This document shows positions 5,197-62,936 of a stretch of 64,000 nucleotides of DNA, piece by piece. The notes beneath the pieces were generated by a model. The model had not been told where the DNA came from, ran no database searches, and worked only from the letters and a program-made list of their open reading frames with translations. The translations under genes were made by a program, and so were the position numbers. Source of the stretch: Nitrospirota bacterium. Its GTDB lineage: Bacteria; Nitrospirota; Thermodesulfovibrionia; UBA6902. The stretch is from contig JACRHD010000004.1 of assembly GCA_016234115.1 (NCBI GenBank), positions 1 to 64,000 on the forward strand, written 5' to 3'. How positions within the stretch are numbered: position 1 is the stretch's first letter; each line of letters starts with the position of its first letter.

Positions 5197-5283
5197 GAGT
5201 TAAGAGTTAAGAGTCAAGAGTCAAGAGAAATGCTTCTCAATCAGATATTCTGACTTAACTCTTAACTCATAACTCTTGACTCT
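5197..5283. repeat. Heptamer palindrome (AGAGTTA units) between dapL and folK
   Basis: The left arm (5197-5227) is four or five consecutive 7-bp units of the type AGAGTTA/AGAGTCA. The right arm (5252-5283) is the complementary run CTTAACT/CTTGACT. The loop is about 24 bp. The element fills the spacer up to 2 bp from the dapL stop. The loop and right arm closely resemble the element at 26377-26463, so the two are probably copies of one element. Confidence 0.85.
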
Positions 5284-6460: not shown

Positions 6461-6552
6461 AATAAACCTCCTGATAATAATTATAGTGGTCAGTAAAGGT
6501 TGTATTATAAGGAGTTCTCTCTATTATTTCAAAAGCGCATAGCGCATAGCGC

Positions 6553-6587
6553 TTGTGTATTTCGGTAGTGCCTACCGAAATACACAA
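6553..6587. repeat. Perfect TTTCGG-type hairpin
   Basis: TTGTGTATTTCGGTAG, a 3-nt loop (TGC), then its exact complement: 16-bp arms with no mismatch. It lies between the divergent dapL and REC-HDOD genes. Two relatives with TTTCGGGA arms occur at 24190 and 24262. Confidence 0.9.
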
Positions 6588-6639
6588 CCCTGTGCCCTAT
6601 GCCCTATGCTTTCTCTGCGGTTATGCCGAAAAGATATTC

Positions 6640-9052: not shown

Positions 9053-9067
9053 AGATTAGAAATAAAT

Positions 9068-9134
9068 CCACAGATTACACAGATTAACACAGATTTTTCT
9101 ATATTTCTATTAATAATCTGTGCAATCTGTGGAC
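9068..9134. repeat. CACAGATT-unit palindrome between hemL and ychF
   Basis: Left arm TCCACAGATTACACAGATT plus another unit (9068-9097); right arm AATCTGTGCAATCTGTGGA (9115-9133). It fills the spacer between the ychF start and the hemL stop. The same unit forms the inner arms of the 177-bp twins at 52.9 and 58.2 kb. Confidence 0.85.
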
Positions 9135-13753: not shown

Positions 13754-13830
13754 AGCGATCAGCAATCAGCTTTCAGCAGTCAGCTTAAAAAACAGACCGC
13801 CTTGGCTGATCGCTGAGAGCTGATTGCTGA
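13754..13830. repeat. Heptamer palindrome (AGCAATC units) upstream of the CysC-like gene
   Basis: Left arm AGCGATCAGCAATCAGC and further units (13754-13786); right arm GGCTGATCGCTGAGAGC onward (13804-13830). The element uses the same unit as the one between pstS and pstC at 20631-20708. Confidence 0.85.
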
Positions 13831-13841
13831 TTTATTTCCTG

Positions 13842-14387: not shown

Positions 14388-14469
14388 AGTAGCAAGTAGT
14401 TAGTAGTTAAGGGATACACTTCAAGAAGTTTTTCCCCCTTAACTACTAACTACTTGCTACTAACTACTA
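14388..14469. repeat. Heptamer palindrome (TAGTAGT/AGCAAGT units) upstream of phoB
   Basis: Left arm CAGTAGCAAGTAGTTAGTAG with TTAAGG (14388-14412) pairs with CCTTAACTACTAACTACTTG and repeats (14436-14469). The loop is about 24 bp. The phoB -10 element follows immediately. Confidence 0.85.
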
Positions 14470-19287: not shown

Positions 19288-19429
19288 TTAGCCACATTGT
19301 TTTTCACAAACATGTCATGTTTCGGCTTATTGTAGAGATAGTTAATGAAGAAAGGAGGGAATGAGAGTTTAGAGTCGCTAATGAGTTCATAATAAGGCTC
19401 CATAGCTCGTCATTCCCGTGCCTAAAGCA

Positions 19430-19545
19430 CCTACTGTCGGCAGTCAGTAAGCGGGAATCCAGGGAGCATTAGAAGAACTGGATGCCCGATTAAGAACCCC
19501 CGATTACGACCTTCGAGGGCAGGCTTCGGGCATGACGCCGATTTA
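19430..19545. repeat. ATTCCCG...CGGGAAT-type interspersed repeat in the pstS leader
   Basis: CGTCATTCCCG pairs with CGGGCATGACG at the far end, and inner CGGGAATCCAG pairs with CTGGATGCCCG. A relative in the opposite orientation lies at 24859-24975. It resembles in general form the dRS3-like ATTCCC-GGGAAT repeats known from other bacteria. Confidence 0.75.
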
Positions 19546-19619: not shown

Positions 19620-20630
19620 ATGATTAAAAAAATTGCCATGGGCGCAATAGCCCTGATGTTTTTATTAACGGCAGCAGCCGTGACGGTAACAGCCGCTGAC
19701 AAGATAGTCAGGATCGACGGCTCCAGCACGGTCTATCCGATTACAGAGGCGGTGGCGGAGGAGTTTCAAAAGGCCAGGAGGGGCGAAGTCAAAGTCACGG
19801 TCGGCATCTCAGGCACGGGCGGGGGGTTTAAAAAGTTTTGTCGCGCTGAAACCGACATATCCGATGCCTCAAGACCCATACTGAAAAAGGAGATTGACGT
19901 GTGCAAGGAGCAGGGCATTGAATATATTGAGCTTCCGGTCGCGTATGACGGGCTCGCCGTAATTGTAAACCCGAAAAATACATGGGTAAAATCCTTGACG
20001 GTTGCCGATCTTAACAAGATGTGGGCGCCGGCTGCCCAGGGCGTCGTGACAAAATGGAAACAGGTAAGACCTGAATGGCCGGATGCTTCCTTAAAGCTGT
20101 TCGGGCCGGGAGTTGATTCAGGGACCTTCGACTATTTTACAGAGGCCGTCAACGGCAAATCAAAGGCTTCGCGGGGCGATTTCACCGCAAGCGAGGATGA
20201 CAATGTCCTTGTTCAGGGAATATCCGGCGACAAAAATGCCCTCGGATACTTCGGCCTTGCGTACTACGAAGAAAATAAAGATAAGCTGAAGCTCGTTCCC
20301 ATAGTGAATCCCGCGACAGGCAAGGAAGTCCTCCCGTCGGAAAAGACCGTCATGGACGGGTCGTATACGCCTCTTTCGAGGCCGTTGTTTATTTATGTCA
20401 ATAAAAAATCAGTGGAAACAAAACCGGAGATTAAAGAATTTGTCGATTTTTATCTCAAGAGCGCGCCAAAGCTCACAGGGCAGGTAAGGTACGTTCCGCT
20501 TCCGTCAGTCGCGTACAAGCTTGCAGAGGAGAGGTTTGCGAAGAAGAAGACGGGCAGCATGTTCGGCGGCGAGGAAAAAGTTGGCATGAAGATCGAAGAT
20601 CTGCTCAGGATGGAAGAAGGCAAGAAGTAG
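19620..20630 (+). CDS. pstS: Phosphate ABC transporter periplasmic binding protein
   Basis: A 336-residue exported protein: Sec signal peptide (about 1-25, [13 protein letters not shown]), then the phosphate-binding loop [40 protein letters not shown] and [18 protein letters not shown], all typical of PstS. AAGGAG seven bases before the ATG fixes the start. It is separated from pstC by a heptamer palindrome and by a second Pho box, so it can be made in excess over the membrane components. Confidence 0.95.
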
Positions 20631-20708
20631 CGATCAGCAATCAGCGGTCAGCAGACAGCAAAAGGGGTCTTTTATAAGCTGACTGCTGAAAGCTGATTGC
20701 TGATCGCT
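20631..20708. repeat. Heptamer palindrome (AGCAATC/AGCGGTC units) between pstS and pstC
   Basis: It starts at the base after the pstS stop codon. Left arm CGATCAGCAATCAGCGGTCA and GCAGACAGC; right arm GCTGACTGCTGAAAGC with TGATTGCTGATCGC. It could stop or stabilise the pstS transcript 3' end. Confidence 0.85.
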
Positions 20709-21665: not shown

Positions 21666-21753
21666 AAATTCAAAATGTAAAATTCAAAATTCAAAATTAA
21701 GGAAAGATATTTATTGAAAATTTCTTCCACAATTTTGATTTTTGATTTTTAAT
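21664..21753. repeat. Heptamer palindrome (AAAATTC units) between pstC and pstA
   Basis: Left arm: five successive heptamers of the AAAATTC, AAAATGT, AAAATTC type (21665-21699). Right arm: AATTTTGATTTTTGATTTTT (21730-21750). It begins inside the pstC stop codon and ends about 10 bp before the pstA ATG. Confidence 0.85.
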
Positions 21754-22705: not shown

Positions 22706-23485
22706 ATGAGCGCGGTTACATCGAAAGATCTTAAAGCGGAAGCGAAGGGCCTGAATTTCTTCTACGGCTCTGTTCATGCCCTGAAGAATATCAGTCTTCC
22801 AATTGAAAGAAGAAAGGTGACGGCGCTGATAGGTCCCTCGGGCTGCGGAAAGACCACGTTCCTGCGGTGCTTCAACCGTATGCACGACCTTTATCCTCAC
22901 AACAGGTACGAGGGCGAGATTCTGCTGTATCCGGACAACGTCAACATCATTTCGCCGGAGATCGATCCCATAGAAGTGAGGATGCAGATAAGCATGGTCT
23001 TTCAGAAACCCAACCCGTTTCCCAAGACCATATATGAAAATGTAGCGTACGGCCTCAGGGTCAGGGGGACCAGGAAGAAGCAGGTAATCGACGAGAGGGT
23101 GGAAAAATCATTGCGCGGCGCCGCGTTGTGGGAAGAGGTGAAAGACAGGCTCCACAACCTGGCGTTCGACCTGTCGGGCGGCCAGCAGCAGAGGCTTTGC
23201 ATAGCAAGGGCGCTGGCGACCGACCCGAGGATACTCCTCTTTGACGAACCGACTTCAGCTCTGGACCCGATAGCGACTTCGAAAATCGAAGAGCTGATAA
23301 TAGAGCTAAAAAATGAAGTAACAATTATAATAGTGACGCATAATATGCAGCAGGCGGCGAGGGTGTCCGATTACACGTCCTTCATGTATATAGGTGAGAT
23401 CATTGAATATGACAGGACCGATAAGATATTCACAGCCCCTTCCAGCAAGCTTACTGAAGATTACATAACAGGGAGGTTCGGATAA
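22706..23485 (+). CDS. pstB: Phosphate ABC transporter ATP-binding protein PstB
   Basis: A 259-residue ATPase. Walker [10 protein letters not shown], the PstB-specific [12 protein letters not shown]-loop [26 protein letters not shown] signature [16 protein letters not shown], Walker [14 protein letters not shown] and the switch histidine in [19 protein letters not shown] are all present. The stop codon overlaps the phoU ATG by one base. The 34-bp gap from pstA contains a short G-rich repeat (GGGGCAAGGGTCAAGGG). Confidence 0.97.
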
Positions 23486-24147
23486 TGCCTGTAAGGAGCG
23501 TGGAACTGGAGCACCTGAAGGAAATGATCCTGAAAATGGCTATGACTGTTGAGGCTGCGATAAAAGATTCGGTGCGCTCCCTCGTTGAAAGGGATTCCGA
23601 ACTGGCCAGGCGGGTAATTGATGAAGACCGCAAGATCAATACCTTCGACGTACAGATAGACGAGGAGTGCGTGCGGCTTCTGGCCCTCAAACAGCCGATG
23701 GGGAAAGACCTGAGATTCATCACTACCGCCATGAAGATCACTACTGATCTGGAGAGGATTGCCGACAACGCAGTCAATATAGCCGAGAGGGCGCTGGAGC
23801 TGAATGAAGAGCCCCTCCTGAAACCTTATATCGATATACCGAAAATGAGCAGGATCGCGCAGGGCATGGTGCGCGACACCATAGACGCCTTTATCAATGA
23901 GGACAAGCAGCTTGCCAAGGACGTCATCATGCGGGATGATGAAGTCGACGATCTGAATGAGACCGTGATAAAGGAGCTGATGTTCATCATGACCCAGGAC
24001 CCCTCGACCGTCTCAAGGGCGGTCAAGATAAGTTATATATCAAAATACCTCGAGAGGATCGCCGACCATTCAACCAATATAGCGGAGACCGTTATCTACA
24101 TGGTGGAGGGAAAGATAATCCGCCATATGCTGCCGGACCAGATATAG
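23485..24147 (+). CDS. phoU: Phosphate-specific transport system accessory protein PhoU
   Basis: A 220-residue protein made of two PhoU three-helix repeats. Metal-binding motifs of the E/DxxxD type are seen in TTDLERIADNAVNIAERAL and YLERIADHSTNIAETVIYM. PhoU couples Pst transport status to PhoR and dampens the Pho response when phosphate is plentiful. It completes the pstSCAB-phoU set. The transcript is followed by a 900-bp gene-free region rich in repeats. Confidence 0.95.
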   Translation: MPVRSVELEHLKEMILKMAMTVEAAIKDSVRSLVERDSELARRVIDEDRKINTFDVQIDEECVRLLALKQPMGKDLRFITTAMKITTDLERIADNAVNIAERALELNEEPLLKPYIDIPKMSRIAQGMVRDTIDAFINEDKQLAKDVIMRDDEVDDLNETVIKELMFIMTQDPSTVSRAVKISYISKYLERIADHSTNIAETVIYMVEGKIIRHMLPDQI

Positions 24148-24457: not shown

Positions 24458-24565
24458 GTGAGAGGATGTTGACAGTAATTTAAAAGGTTAACCCACCTAA
24501 ATAAGAGCCCAACCTTTTAAACTTCATCCATGTCCCCTAAAAAAGGTCAGCATCCTCTTTTTTTT
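24458..24565 (+). ncRNA. Candidate structured small RNA with its own promoter and terminator
   Basis: The outer stem is AGAGGATGTTGAC (24461-24473) with GTCAGCATCCTCT (24546-24558): 13 pairs, one of them G-U. An inner stem is TTTAAAAGGTT (24479-24489) with AACCTTTTAAA (24511-24521): 11 perfect pairs around a 21-nt loop. The closing stem is followed by seven T residues, an intrinsic terminator. A -35/-10 pair lies just upstream. The unpaired parts are C-rich (AACCCACC, GAGCCC, CATCCATGTCCCC), which could pair with Shine-Dalgarno sequences. It does not match SRP, 6S or tmRNA as I know them. No coding potential seen. Confidence 0.62.
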
Positions 24566-24649
24566 ATTCCTTTAGCCACAAATTTTCACGAATTGACCCG
24601 AATAAAAAATTGTAACGTGTCATCGGTAAGGGGTTTATCTTAGAAAAAG

Positions 24650-24795
24650 CAGTTAACCACAGAGGCACAGAGGCACCGAGTTAAAAAATAAGAGAAAAGG
24701 CCAATATGAATCATTCACCTAAGTGATGAAGCAAAATTATTCGATAACCTCTTGTTTTCTCAGTGTCTCTGTGCCTCTGTGGTAAATGAACTGCT
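24650..24795. repeat. CACAGAGG-unit palindrome nested in the compound repeat
   Basis: GCAGTTAACCACAGAGGCAC and a further CAGAGGCACC unit pair with GTGTCTCTGTGCCTCTGTGG and TGAACTGC. The unit is 8 bp (CACAGAGG). The loop is about 85 bp and does not look coding. Confidence 0.8.
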
Positions 24796-24816
24796 GTTTT
24801 TAGGTTTATTCATTGT

Positions 24817-25015
24817 AACCGCTCAGTGGATAATGCTGCATGCTCGACCTCATAGAACTGTCATGCCCGAAGTTCCCCCGACTAAGGCCTTCGAGGGCAG
24901 GCTTAATCGGGCATCCATGGACCAGTAGAAGGGTGGATTTCCGCTTAATGACTGCGGGAATGACAGGCTTCGATAGATATTACTGATATTACTGCACCCA
25001 CATAACTGAGCGGTT
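24817..25015. repeat. MITE-like element with AACCGCTCAGT terminal inverted repeats
   Basis: AACCGCTCAGT at the left end and its exact complement ACTGAGCGGTT at the right bound about 199 bp. The interior carries a GTCATGCCCG...CGGGAATGACAG palindrome. A second element with the same ends but a different interior lies at 62644-62784. Confidence 0.72.
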
Positions 25016-25058
25016 CCTATTCATTCGAGTTTATTCGTGTAATTCGTGGCTGATTGCC

Positions 25059-26360
25059 TCACGGTCTTCCGATTGAATAATAAGTGAAGCCCATTTTCCT
25101 CAGCCTTTCCGGTTCATATATGTTCCTGAGGTCAAAGAAGAACTCTCCCCTAGCGAGCTTTTTTATCCGGTTGAAATCCAGGTTTCTGAACTGGTTCCAT
25201 TCCGTGACGATCACAACGGCGTCCGCGCCCTTGGCGGCGTCATAGACGTCTTTGCAGTAGGTGACTTTCGGCATGACCTTCTTTGCGTCGTCCATCGCAA
25301 CGGGGTCATAGGCCCTTACCTTTGCCCCGCCTTTGAGGAGCCTGTTAATGATAAAGAGGGCCGGCGATTCTCTCATATCATTGGTGTTGGGTTTGAATGA
25401 AAGGCCGAGAACGCAGACGGTCTTTCCTTTTGCCTTTACAAGCGCTTTTATTATCTTGTCCGCTGCCCGCTCTTTCTGATAATCGTTGGTCTTCACCGTT
25501 GCCTCGATAAGCCCCATATGGACCTGGTTTTCTCTGCCTATTTGTAAAAGGGCCATGGTATCTTTAGGAAAGCATGAGCCGCCGTACCCGGGCCCGGCGT
25601 GGAGGAATTTGGGGCCTATCCTGCGGTCCAGCCCCATGGCCTTTGCAACTACCTGCACATCGGCCCCTACGGTCTCGCATAGTGTGGCGATCTCGTTAAT
25701 AAAAGAAATTTTAACGGCAAGAAAGGCGTTCGACGCATATTTTATCAACTCGGCGGTCTTTATATCGGTAATGACAATGGGCGTCTCAATGAGATAAAGG
25801 GGCCTGTAAAGGTCCTTCATGATGGCGACCGCCTGGTCGCTCGATGCCCCGATAACAACCCTGTTGGGCCTCATAAAATCCTCAATCCCGGCGCCTTCGC
25901 GCAGAAATTCCGGATTGGAGACAACGTCGAAATCGACGCTCTCTTTTAAATTTTTAGCTATGATACTGCGGATCTTCTCCCCTGTCCCAACAGGTACGGT
26001 GCTCTTGGTCACGATCACCTTGTAGCTGTTGATATGCCTTGCGATTTCTCTTGCAACGCCTTCAACATATTTCATGTCCGCTGAGCCGTCTCCGCGCGGG
26101 GGCGTGCCCACGGCTATAAAGATCACCAGGGCGGTGTCTACGGCATCGGCAATATTGCTCGTAAAGTCCATCCTGCCGGCCTTGAGGTTCCTCTGCAGGA
26201 GCTCTTCAAGCCCGGGTTCGTAAAAAGGTACGACGCCTTTCTTCAGAAGCTCTATTTTGTTCTCATCGTTGTCGACGCAAGTTACGTGTATCCCGAATTC
26301 CGCAAAACACGCCCCTGTAATCAGTCCGACATACCCGCTGCCTATTACGGCAATATTCAT
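25059..26360 (-). CDS. ugd: UDP-glucose 6-dehydrogenase
   Basis: Oxidises UDP-glucose to UDP-glucuronate for polysaccharide or LPS sugars. 433 residues: N-terminal Rossmann motif IGSGYVGLITGACFAEFG, VAVGTPP-type segment (IFIAVGTPPRGDGSADM), VVSNPEFLREGAGIEDFMRPNRVVIG, the catalytic cysteine in GPGYGGSCFPKD, and the C-terminal domain VLGLSFKPNTNDMRESPAL. A GGGGGTAAG ribosome-binding site precedes the ATG. Heptosyltransferase and other envelope genes lie upstream on the same strand. Confidence 0.96.
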   Translation of the reverse strand: MNIAVIGSGYVGLITGACFAEFGIHVTCVDNDENKIELLKKGVVPFYEPGLEELLQRNLKAGRMDFTSNIADAVDTALVIFIAVGTPPRGDGSADMKYVEGVAREIARHINSYKVIVTKSTVPVGTGEKIRSIIAKNLKESVDFDVVSNPEFLREGAGIEDFMRPNRVVIGASSDQAVAIMKDLYRPLYLIETPIVITDIKTAELIKYASNAFLAVKISFINEIATLCETVGADVQVVAKAMGLDRRIGPKFLHAGPGYGGSCFPKDTMALLQIGRENQVHMGLIEATVKTNDYQKERAADKIIKALVKAKGKTVCVLGLSFKPNTNDMRESPALFIINRLLKGGAKVRAYDPVAMDDAKKVMPKVTYCKDVYDAAKGADAVVIVTEWNQFRNLDFNRIKKLARGEFFFDLRNIYEPERLRKMGFTYYSIGRP

Positions 26361-26376
26361 ACTTACCCCCTTAATT

Positions 26377-26463
26377 AGAGTTAAGAGTCAAGAGTTAAGA
26401 GTTAGGCGCAAGGCCTTAATCTTCAATCGGATATTCAGACTTAACTCTTAACTCCTGACTCTT
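26377..26463. repeat. Heptamer palindrome (AGAGTTA units) upstream of ugd
   Basis: Left arm AGAGTTAAGAGTCAAGAGTT and a further unit; right arm CTTAACTCTTAACTCCTGAC. The loop segment TTCAATCGGATATTCAGACTT matches the loop of the element at 5197-5283 with few changes. Confidence 0.85.
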
Positions 26464-44857: not shown

Positions 44858-44933
44858 GCCACGAATTTTCACGAATTGTCTCGAATAATAATATATCTTA
44901 TTCTTTCGTGTTTATTAGTGTTCATTCGTGGCT
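44858..44933. repeat. Intact CACGAATT palindrome
   Basis: GGCCACGAATTTTCACGAAT on the left; ATTAGTGTTCATTCGTGGCT on the right. It spans from 13 bp before one gene's start to the stop codon of the DUF3187 gene. This 76-bp form is the uninterrupted version of the compound at 24576-25054. Confidence 0.85.
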
Positions 44934-45900
44934 AAAGCTCCATCTTGTACGTAAGATTCGCAATAAAATCCGGCGAGCCGGATACGTTCAGGTCTTCTGT
45001 CAGGGACAGATCAAAACTGTTGCCGCCTTTATGATACCTTCCGCCGAAAGTAATCATAACGGCCTCCCCGTCAACGGCTTCCACGCCGGTCTCGGGGAAG
45101 AAGGATGACTGGCCCATGACCTGGACCAGCAGGCCAAACCCCTTCCCCGCGTCGGCCTCGATTGCGCCGCCTCCGTATATGAAATTTCTTAAATCTATCG
45201 TTTCATGTCCCTTCACGTCTCCGGGAAATACCGCGCCGAAACTCCAGTAGCTCATAAGCCGGTCCGTAATTCTCATGTCGAGCAGGACCGCTGCCCCGGC
45301 GTCCAGGCTGCCGTTGCCGTACCCCTCTTTGGCGTTGCCGACGGGGACTTCCACGTCCCCCTTTACACTCAGAGCAAGCCCGTTGAGGGATATCAGGGAC
45401 TTTTTCAGGGCAAGCCTGACATCGCCGAGCTTCGTGTCGCTGTGTCCTTTGACAAGCAGGACGCCGTCTTTTTTTATTTCATAGAGAAACTCATTGTTCG
45501 GTCTCCGGCTTCTTCCATAATCGGCAAACCCGAATGTACTGTGATAGGACTCGAGAAAACCGTCCATGAACCCTTCGCCGATAACGAGGACAGGGACATC
45601 CAGGTCAAACTCAATGAAATCCCTCAAGATCCTCCTGTATGTGAAATTCAGACTGGTAATCTCCATGTCGAGGTTGACGTCCCAGTCGGCCGAGCTATCG
45701 ACAGTATAGGTGCTTGAGTGCGACAGGCTCAACGACGCGGAGTTTTCCATTTCCGCCTTTTCGAGGTAAGGCTGATTCGCGTGAAGGAATATCGGATAGA
45801 GGTTCCTTGCCTGAAAGGGGCCTTCAAAGGAAAAGGCAGCGGTAAAGGGACACGCAAGAAACAGAAAAAAAAACAGGATGGCCCTCGGAGCAGTTTTCAT
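44932..45900 (-). CDS. DUF3187 family outer-membrane beta-barrel protein
   Basis: A 322-residue exported protein with a signal peptide (RAILFFFLFLACPFTAAFS) and alternating hydrophobic beta-strands to the C-terminus, which ends in TYKMEL. FQARNLYPIFL near the mature N-terminus and SLSHSSTYTVDSSADWDVNLDMEITSLNFTYRRIL are typical of DUF3187, predicted outer-membrane proteins of unknown cargo. It is 4 bp from pgk on the same strand. Confidence 0.82.
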   Translation of the reverse strand: MKTAPRAILFFFLFLACPFTAAFSFEGPFQARNLYPIFLHANQPYLEKAEMENSASLSLSHSSTYTVDSSADWDVNLDMEITSLNFTYRRILRDFIEFDLDVPVLVIGEGFMDGFLESYHSTFGFADYGRSRRPNNEFLYEIKKDGVLLVKGHSDTKLGDVRLALKKSLISLNGLALSVKGDVEVPVGNAKEGYGNGSLDAGAAVLLDMRITDRLMSYWSFGAVFPGDVKGHETIDLRNFIYGGGAIEADAGKGFGLLVQVMGQSSFFPETGVEAVDGEAVMITFGGRYHKGGNSFDLSLTEDLNVSGSPDFIANLTYKMEL

Positions 45901-54558: not shown

Positions 54559-54781
54559 CAGTAACAAGTGACAAGTGACAAGTAACGGTATCCATCCAGT
54601 TACAAGTTAAAACACACCCCTGCACCCCTCTCAAGAGGGGACTAAAGACAAGGTCCCCTCCTGGGAGGGGTGGGGGGTGGGTTTCTTTCCTGTACAAAGA
54701 TACACCCTATAACTGAATGGGTATCAAGTAACGAGCAGTTTTCTTGAATTAACGGTTACTCGTTACTCATCACTTGTTACT
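54559..54781. repeat. Triple-nested repeat upstream of ubiD
   Basis: The outermost layer is a GTAACAAGTGACAAGTGACA heptamer arm (54561) with GGTTACTCGTTACTC...CACTTGTTAC (54754-54780). Inside it, GGTATCCATCCAGTTA (54587) pairs with TAACTGAATGGGTATC (54711). Innermost is ACACCCCTGCACCCCTC with GAGGGGTGGGGGGTGGGT (54604-54690). Three different element types are stacked like dolls. Confidence 0.82.
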
Positions 54782-54784
54782 GGA

Positions 54785-55825: not shown

Positions 55826-55903
55826 ATTAGAGTTAAGAGTCAAGAGGTAAGAGTCAAGAACATCCTTATACATAACTCTTAACTCATAACTCTTGACTCT
55901 TCT
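55826..55903. repeat. Heptamer palindrome (AGAGTTA units) between dnaX and ebfC
   Basis: Left arm AGAGTTAAGAGTCAAGAGGT with AAGAGTCAAGA; right arm ATAACTCTTAACTCATAACT with CTTGACTCTT. Third occurrence of this unit in the window (also 5197 and 26377). Confidence 0.85.
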
Positions 55904-57531: not shown

Positions 57532-57629
57532 AAGTAGTTAGTAGATAGTAGTTAGCAGTTAAGGGTAAGGATTAGTAGATTTCTCTTTTTATTCATTCCC
57601 TAACTACTAACTGCTTACTACTAATCCCT
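57532..57629. repeat. Heptamer palindrome (AGTAGTT units) between dnaX and the SRP RNA
   Basis: Left arm TAAGTAGTTAGTAGATAGTA with GTTAGCAGTTAAGGG; right arm CCCTAACTACTAACTGCTTA with CTACTAATCCC. Confidence 0.82.
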
Positions 57630-59043: not shown

Positions 59044-60175
59044 ATGATCACTTATCAGGAATTAAAAGATAAATCAGGCGAAATTCTGTCAAGGATCGAT
59101 ACCCTCCGGAGGTATCTTTGATGTACCCTCTCAATTACACCGTCTCGAAGCCCTCCAGGATGAGCTCTTAAACGAGAACCTCTGGGAAAACCCCTCAAAG
59201 GCCCAGGAGCTGCTGAGGGAAAAGTCGGCTGTAGAAAATTCTCTCCAGCTTTTTCACTCATTAGAGAAAAAATATGAAGACATCCATATACTGCTCGAAC
59301 TTTCGGGAGAAGACGGGGGCGAGGGTTTTCTTAAGGACGCTGAAAAAGGGTTAGACGACCTGATGTCGGAAATCGACGAGGCGGAATTGAAAAGCATCCT
59401 TTCCCAGGTCGAAGACAGACACGATGCCATTATGACCATACATCCCGGCGCAGGCGGGACCGAAAGCCAGGATTGGGCCCAGATGCTGATGAGGATGTAT
59501 ATAAGATGGGCCGAGCGGAAAGGGTTTAAAGTTGAAATAGTCGATCTGCTATCGGGTGAAGAGGCCGGGATAAAGAGCGTTACCCTGACCATCAACGGCC
59601 CGTATGCGTTTGGATACCTCAAAGGAGAGGCGGGTGTTCACCGTCTTGTGAGGATATCTCCGTTTGACGCGAACAAAAGAAGACACACGTCCTTCGCCGC
59701 CGTTCTTGTTTATCCTGAGATAAGCGAAGACATTGAAATAGATATTAAAGAAGACGATCTGAAAATAGACACGTTCAGGGCTTCCGGGGCCGGGGGGCAG
59801 CACGTCAACAAGACCTCCTCGGCAGTAAGGCTGACTCACATTCCGTCTGGCATTATCGTCAGTTGTCAGAATGAGCGCTCCCAGCATAAAAACAAGGCAA
59901 CGGCCTTGAAGATCATCAAGGCGCGTTTGTATGCGATGAAGAAAAAAGAACAGGATGAAAAACTCGAAGAGTTCAAAGGCGAGAAAAAAGACATCGCCTG
60001 GGGCAGTCAGATACGGTCATACACCCTCCAGCCGTACCAGCTCATCAAAGACCACAGGACAGGGTACGAAACGGGAAACGTCAATGCCGTGCTGGACGGC
60101 GGTATAGATAATTTCATAAAAGAGTTCCTGCTTGTTAAAAAGACGGGCGTAAAGACAGTGACGGGCAACAAGTAA
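59044..60175 (+). CDS. prfB: Peptide chain release factor 2, expressed by programmed +1 frameshifting
   Basis: RF2 recognises UGA and UAA. Frame 1 starts at the ATG at 59044 (AGGAGG upstream), runs 25 codons and stops at TGA (59119-59121) in the context GGAGG-TAT-CTT-TGA. This is the known prfB shift site: an internal Shine-Dalgarno, a slippery CTT and the TGA. A +1 shift joins it to the long frame, giving about 376 residues. The RF2 anticodon-like tripeptide SPF (RISPFDANKRRHTSFA) and the catalytic SGAGGQHVNKTSSAVRL are present. The last codons (VTGNK and the TAA stop) are encoded by the GTGACGG/GTAACAA heptamer repeat at 60161. Confidence 0.96.
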
Positions 60176-60229
60176 CAAGTGACGAGCAGCTTTTAAAGTG
60201 ACCTGTCACTTGTTACTCGTTACTTGTCA
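60161..60229. repeat. Heptamer palindrome (GTAACAA/GTGACGA units) overlapping the prfB 3' end
   Basis: Left arm GTGACGGGCAACAAGTAACA with AGTGACGAG; right arm GTGACCTGTCACTTGTTACT with CGTTACTTGTCAC. The prfB TAA lies within the left arm, and the prmA stop lies at the end of the right arm. Confidence 0.85.
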
Positions 60230-61087
60230 CAATACAGTGGCCTTCTCAACCACAAGGGTCACCCACTTGTCATCAACTACTTTCTCCCTGAGCGCCAGTC
60301 CAGCCCTCTGCGCTGACTCTATTACCTCATCCTCCTGTCCCGCAAGCATCCCTGACAGGATGGCCGTGCCTCCCGGATTAAGGCGGGATACGATATCCTG
60401 TGCGATTTGTATTAATGTCCCGGCCAGGAGGTTTGCGCTGATTACGTCGAAAGTACCAGCGACATCCATGATCTCTCCCTTTTTTATGACAATATTTTTC
60501 AGATCGTTCAGCCCGACATTAAACAGGGAAGCCTCGACGGACAGAGGATCATTATCTATTGCGGTTACCGGCGAAAATCCTAACCGCGCCGCGGCAATGG
60601 CAAGTATTCCCGTCCCGGTCCCGATATCGAGGAAACTCTCTCCCGCAGAATTATCAGATATTCTCTCTATGAGAGTCAGACACATCCTGGTCGACTCATG
60701 GTGCCCCGTGCCGAACACCTGCCCGGGGTCGATGATGACGGCAATGCGGTCCGTGTCCGCTTTCACCCATGAGGGAACGATGGTGAGTTTATTCCCGACT
60801 TCGATCGGGTTGAAGTTCTTTTTCCAGGATTCATTCCAGTCTGTTTCGGGAAGAAGGACATAATCAAAAGAAAATGCCGGGCTGAGGCCGGCGTCAGTCA
60901 GGACCTTCCTGAATTCATCAAGCTCGGCGCACAATTCCGGCATGATCACTCCGTCGTCAAAATAGGCGATTATACTGCCGTCCCGTTCATAGACACCCGG
61001 CGATCCCATCTCCGCAAGTTTGTTCATAACTGCGTCGCGCGATTCGTCCGGCATGCTGACTGTAAATTCATAATAGCTGGGCGACAT
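60227..61087 (-). CDS. prmA: Ribosomal protein L11 methyltransferase
   Basis: A 286-residue SAM-dependent methyltransferase. The N-terminal half is the L11-binding domain (MSPSYYEFTVSMPDESRDAVMNKLAEMG). Then DWNESWKKNFNPIEVGNKLTIVPSW, DPGQVFGTGHHESTRMCL and the SAM motif FLDIGTGTGILAIAAARLG, with ISANLLAGTLIQIA as motif IV. GGGAAGGACT before the ATG at 61087 fixes the start. Confidence 0.94.
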   Translation of the reverse strand: MSPSYYEFTVSMPDESRDAVMNKLAEMGSPGVYERDGSIIAYFDDGVIMPELCAELDEFRKVLTDAGLSPAFSFDYVLLPETDWNESWKKNFNPIEVGNKLTIVPSWVKADTDRIAVIIDPGQVFGTGHHESTRMCLTLIERISDNSAGESFLDIGTGTGILAIAAARLGFSPVTAIDNDPLSVEASLFNVGLNDLKNIVIKKGEIMDVAGTFDVISANLLAGTLIQIAQDIVSRLNPGGTAILSGMLAGQEDEVIESAQRAGLALREKVVDDKWVTLVVEKATVL

Positions 61088-62635: not shown

Positions 62636-62643
62636 CAAGAAGT

Positions 62644-62784
62644 AACCCGCTCAGTTATGTGGAGTATTCCCCCTTTGAAAAAGGGGGAGGAAGGGGGATT
62701 TTGAAATAAAAGGCATCCATCAAAAAATCTCCCCTCGCCCATCTTTTCCAAAGAGGGGATTTGTCCCCCAGTAACTAAGCGGTT
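62644..62784. repeat. Element with AACCGCTCAGT-type ends carrying a CCCCCTTT interior
   Basis: Left end AACCCGCTCAGTTATGTGG, right end CAGTAACTAAGCGGTTA. The interior (62660-62771) is the CCCCCTTT...AAAGAGGGG repeat. The element at 24817-25015 has the same ends but a GTCATGCCCG interior. Confidence 0.72.
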
Positions 62785-62936
62785 ACGACATGAAGTAATT
62801 TTTTTGCATATTTTCCTCTTCTTTTGATAATATTTACGCCACGGCATCTGTCATCGGAAATTGATGACAAATAGGACAAATCGTCAGGTCGGTAGTTTTT
62901 AGCGCAGGACTTTTTTCTATTGACTTAGAGGCGGTT

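Follow-up and report, generated by a model that had tools for sequence, protein, structure and literature searches.

In the genome of an uncultivated Nitrospirota bacterium, the two arms of a hairpin stand apart in the intergenic region where phoU and ugd converge, with other repeats between them. How did the arms become separated, and do mobile elements enter the loops of such hairpins by preference? We regard it as highly probable that the interval is a palimpsest, in which a hairpin (C) was later hit separately by two unrelated MITEs, A (most likely IS1380-like) and B (most likely IS66-like). The window that we analysed is a stretch of 64,000 nucleotides on contig C33 of a 3.5-Mb metagenome-assembled genome (MAG; G000). 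Judged by the protein of the adjoining ugd, the nearest named relatives are MAGs of Nitrospiraceae and Thermodesulfovibrionia (86-80% identity). The features of the nested site are as follows.

23485-24147: phoU, convergent with ugd, left flank of the nested site
24574-24638 (+): left half of hairpin C (CACGAAT words), ending in the left TTTAT of A (24634-24638)
24639-24804 (+): element A, a 166-bp MITE with ends CTTAGAAAAAGCAGTT / CCTAAAAACAGCAGTT, an inner CACAGAGG hairpin and TTTAT on either side
24805-24814 (+): 10-bp spacer TTTATTCATT, in which the right duplication of A (24805-24809) overlaps the left one of B (24807-24814)
24815-25017 (+): element B, a 203-bp MITE with ends GTAACCGCTCAG / CTGAGCGGTTCC and TATTCATT on either side
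24860-24964 (+): cargo hairpin pair D within B (GTCATGCCCG...GGGAATGAC), similar to a CGTC-tagged REP dimer
25018-25051 (+): right half of hairpin C with the right duplication of B (25018-25025), match to 44896-44933
25059-26360: ugd, UDP-glucose dehydrogenase, convergent with phoU, right flank of the nested site
44858-44934 (+): uninterrupted free-standing hairpin C, with further copies at L032, L033, L035 and L037

One hairpin with two insertions

The initial annotation had recognised the 44858 palindrome, in two separated arms, at 24576-25054, and its reading depended on homology between these flanks and that element. The homology stands. In a search against the whole window, the left arm (24575-24608) matched 44858-44891 at 88% (E 1.4e-6) and the right arm (25015-25051) matched 44896-44933 at 84% (E 6e-5), in the order and orientation of the palindrome. 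The two elements reported between the arms, a CACAGAGG element (A) and a AACCGCTCAGT-bounded element with a GTCATGCCCG palindrome (B), were confirmed. The check for target-site duplications suggested at that time revealed an exact 5-bp duplication for A (TTTAT) and an exact 8-bp duplication for B (TATTCATT), which bear out the claim that the elements were inserted in a pre-existing hairpin. Excision of A and B, each with one duplication, restored a C hairpin of 96 bp (109 bp including flanks). The rejoined C folds as a single hairpin (-15.1; -13.8 for the intact copy at 44858). C must be older than either MITE.

Half copies of C do exist: at L038 only the left arm is present, beside a D element. 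In addition, the left half at the nested site holds about 29 bp that are absent from the 44858 copy. It could be argued that two separate half-hairpins came to lie on either side of A and B by chance, rather than being one split element. We find this barely credible, because the two halves correspond to one and the same element, with order and orientation preserved, both duplications are intact, the joined sequence folds as one hairpin and the other C copies also vary in spacer length.

Misassembly of the contig at the nested site seems unlikely, because phoU and ugd are also neighbours in a related MAG (L252, isolate SURF_23), with conserved synteny. There, the two genes border the same interval. 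In this relative, the interval is without A, B and the CACGAAT hairpin, and a CACAGAGG-word hairpin occupies the place of the last. The orthologous segments (L252:2770-3250 and window 24461-25085) thus differ in the word of this hairpin and share the AGAGGATGCTGACC hairpin beside it. The CACAGAGG-word hairpin of L252 is possibly an independent insertion, or possibly the product of a word change in one hairpin at a fixed site. The AGAGGATG...CATCCTCT hairpin of the window (24461-24559) has a positionally conserved counterpart in L252, and L092 contains a diverged relative of it. Elsewhere in this genome, A repeats did break the assembly, as at least 15 contig ends (L007-L024) sit inside A copies; plentiful near-identical copies of A account for many contig breaks.

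The site had been described as one of repeats inserted inside repeats. A and B are neighbours on the two sides of the 10-bp spacer, and neither encloses the other. As their duplications overlap, the junctions do not tell which of A and B came first: either order, when written out, gives the identical final sequence. Thus, of the claim that nesting gives a relative order of insertion, the part placing C before A and B was upheld, and the part concerning A versus B was not. B is probably older than A, judging from the greater divergence of its copies: about ten copies of B in the own genome are 78-89% identical, and more than 20 copies of A, full or at contig ends and many cut by them, are 94-99% identical. 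The own-genome counts refer to a 464-kb sample and targeted stretches.

The movers of A and B

Both elements are MITEs, short and non-coding, with target duplications and conserved terminal inverted repeats. We surveyed their flanks genus-wide, with the loci of relatives collected around the same A and B ends. Among A-type end pairs, the 5-bp flanks were identical in 30 of 81, compared with 3.5% in a control in which left and right flanks were taken from different copies. All 29 A duplications examined had T as the second and A as the fourth base, which gives the target WTNAW. Among B-type pairs, 20 of 45 had identical 8-bp flanks, and the same kind of control contained no match at 7 or 8 of the 8 positions. 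More than half of the A and B end pairs are without an exact duplication, several of them being decayed copies or spurious pairings. Across word classes and genera, A keeps two distinguishable ends (CCTAAAAACGGCAGTT and CCTAtAAAAAGCAGTT); because they stay different from each other across genera, the A shells form one family. A 281-bp composite, consisting of A and 115 bp that end in a second A-type end, was also observed at L005:1385-1665 and L100:1-251, with an identical junction at both loci.

The ends of A begin with CCT, and its duplications follow WTNAW. This agrees with what we take to be the rule of the IS1380 family, namely ends beginning with CC and an AT-rich duplication of 4-5 bp. 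An IS1380-family gene in a relative of the same order (L151) has ends CCTGAATCCTGCGT, beginning with CCT, and flanks TTTAA/TTCAA of the same target pattern. A is probably IS1380-like, because this gene shares both its CCT ends and its target pattern. Similarly, B has GTAACC ends and an 8-bp duplication, and GTAA ends with an 8-bp duplication are presumably features of the IS66 family. By this likeness, B is most likely IS66-like. Each MITE would then have been moved into the spacer of C in a separate event, A by a transposase making 5-bp duplications at WTNAW sites and B by one making 8-bp duplications.

Resident partners of these families were considered and rejected. PF13701 (IS1380) was absent from the own genome, and PF03050 (IS66) was represented there by a single partial gene on C23 without B ends. 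The PF13701 genes found in relatives had ends other than those of A, or no detected ends. In relatives, a search for A ends at a spacing of 1-2.5 kb, as a partner element would have them, gave only MITE-sized pairs or unpaired ends. No transposase with A or B ends was found in the own genome or at the sites from relatives, and an exact 30-base pattern from A had no match in named genomes.

The GTCATGCCCG palindrome had been taken as a further element that entered at this locus. We found otherwise: it is cargo brought by B, because the same hairpin pair (D) occurs in other B copies (L025, L026, L028-L030 and L082). Free relatives of D occur at 19409-19533 of the window and at L089. The window holds a third B-type MITE besides the two at the nested and stacked sites.

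62642-62786 (+): B-type MITE with cargo CCCCCTTTG...CAAAGAGGGG and flanks GACAAGAA / GACATGAA, identical at 7 of 8 positions

In the definition given in PMC3733652, CGTC-tagged REPs have a CGTC or TGTC tag, an 8-9 bp stem starting with AT, a CCA tail and a loop of 4-5 bases; loops of other length are noted there as exceptions. Like these repeats, among them the neisserial dRS3, D starts with (C)GTCATTCCCG, has an 8-bp ATTCCCGC stem and a CCA tail, and forms an inverted pair with the tags outside. The tag, stem and tail were seen directly in L082, L089-L091 and L127-L128. The loop of D is about 9 bases (e.g. AGTCAGTAA) instead of 4-5, and D is carried within a MITE. Its host belongs to Nitrospirota, which is not among the phyla in that paper's listing for CGTC repeats. 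D within B may be of REP-type single-strand origin.

With such a resemblance to the REP dimers described in PMC3733652, and with five Y1 transposase genes in the own genome, REP-associated tyrosine transposases might have moved the hairpins as REP-type single-strand elements, and the nesting would be insertion by such an enzyme beside hairpins. This appears very unlikely. C, D and the ends of A and B are absent from the flanks of all five genes, and these enzymes were rejected as movers of C or D, no such palindromes lying near them. Moreover, the terminal repeats and target duplications of A and B are not a product of single-strand transposition. The five genes are at L045-L049, and L046 has a GAAGTAGGAAGTGAGAAG hairpin upstream.

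Insertion into hairpins

We return to the two separate MITE insertions and to the claim that elements enter loops as a rule. A second stack had been reported at 54559-54781, and it is indeed present: a B-type element with a AAGTAACG duplication splits a hairpin.

54559-54587 (+): left arm of a CAAGTGAC-word hairpin (34.6 bits), ending with AAGTAACG
54588-54725 (+): B-type MITE GTATCCATCCAGTTA...TAACTGAATGGGTATC with a CCCCTCTCAAGAGGGG (CCCCTC) hairpin inside, AAGTAACG on either side and one extra base in its right end
54726-54782 (+): right duplication AAGTAACG (54726-54733), loop and right arm of the CAAGTGAC-word hairpin

We scanned 464 kb of the own genome for hairpins of at least 34 bits. 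The scan gave 144 merged hairpins, mostly of 70-90 bp (175 raw hits, compared with 3 in shuffled sequence), and they made up 13.1% of intergenic DNA. Of 12 target-duplicated insertions in the own genome, four lay within hairpins (binomial P = 0.06), a figure biased by the fact that three of the four came from a window picked for its nesting. Outside the window the count was one of nine, the A copy in a GCAAAGGG hairpin at L119. In relatives, none of the flank pairs reached P < 0.01. The enrichment in hairpins is not significant, and a loop preference is not established. The position varies, from the spacer to the edge between arm and loop (54588) and the arm (L106); at 54588 the element sits at the loop edge and not at the loop centre.

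IS elements aimed at REPs are known, such as ISPsy8 and ISPpu9, which split REPs at one fixed position in all copies (PMC1525189). There, as here, the palindrome is split by a mobile element, and its two halves can be joined again. In contrast, only a minority of our copies are in hairpins, and their positions differ. If the present elements recognised hairpins and inserted preferentially into loops, as some IS elements do in Pseudomonas REPs, the nesting would be targeted, and the four insertions in hairpins, including the L119 copy of A and the B element at 54588, would fit. We consider this unlikely, given the non-significant P value, the bias from the choice of window, the low count outside it, the lack of a flank pair at P < 0.01 in relatives and the variable positions, where the known elements use one. 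The two MITEs would rather have landed in C because it was AT-rich, gene-free target DNA, without recognition of the loop. Landing in AT-rich spacers would be favoured for A because its target rule is WTNAW.

Shells and hairpin cores

Two MITEs in an old free-standing hairpin are a mostly ordinary mechanism; the new part is the modular shells. The A ends enclose hairpin arms whose words differ among members: CACAGAG, CAGATT and CACGAAT, the last being the word of hairpin C. Within an A shell, an arm matches its partner more closely than it matches arms of another class (median scores 22-33 versus 14.5). More than one word class was present within single genomes (G007, G008 and G009), a count corrected by eye since word classing had put a few CACAGATT elements (L145, L240 and L241) under CACAGAG. 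Similarly, at least five unrelated hairpins occur between B ends, namely the GTCATTCCCG pair and the GTCATTCTGAG, CCCCTTTG, TTCGACAGG and CCCCTCTCAAGAGGGG hairpins. Some of these cargo hairpins, e.g. D, occur free as well.

Elements also met one another. At L106, B lies within an arm of A, with GTCTCTGT on either side, and at L139, L243 and L246 an A adjoins the left end of another A. An A shell at L217 has a half-replaced interior.

We tentatively propose, as a possibility that falls somewhat short of probable, that the MITEs of Thermodesulfovibrionia are modular: the conserved ends form a shell, the hairpin core is swapped for other hairpins, and its short repeated word changes while its arms stay complementary. 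Each MITE would be a terminal-repeat shell around a hairpin core acquired earlier. Free hairpins may likewise change their word, because the phoU-ugd interval of the relative has a CACAGAGG-word hairpin in place of the CACGAAT-word one.

Bacterial MITEs such as RUP, NEMIS, ERIC and Nezha are, like A and B, short, non-coding, intergenic and multicopy, with inverted repeats, target duplications and strong hairpins. Here, in contrast, one set of ends carries several unrelated cores, some of which also occur outside the shells. In Halothiobacillus neapolitanus and Anabaena variabilis, a longer palindrome surrounds REP-like dimers (PMC3733652, section 7), as B surrounds D. That section reports neither target duplications nor alternative cargo, whereas here the outer palindrome forms a shell that is mobile, is flanked by 8-bp duplications and holds varied cargo. 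In the literature, we found no description of one mobile end set carrying several different hairpins, some of them also free. How REP-like hairpins spread when they lack their own enzyme is an open question about such repeats, and one end set carrying many hairpins would offer them a route. A repeat family counted by its core would also differ from one counted by its ends. In addition, small bacterial repeats can be dated against each other by nested insertions whose duplications are intact, and such insertions provide clean test sites.

Several minor observations concern other hairpins and shells. Three kinds of element are combined in a hybrid at L217:468-650: between A-type ends lie a third-type shell, represented by its left half, a D pair and a right arm of CAGATT words. 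Third-type shells, whose ends resemble AGGAGTTCATAAGTAAAG and whose cargo is of D type, were seen at L127:7708-7846, L127:15537-15703 and L128:11127-11350. In the window, hairpins of 65-90 bp have arms made of a word of 7-9 bases repeated two to three times, and the word differs in most of them (5197-5282, 6534-6605, 9067-9133, 13758-13831, 14388-14461, 20629-20708, 21678-21751, 26383-26463, 55829-55900, 57538-57624 and 60158-60230).
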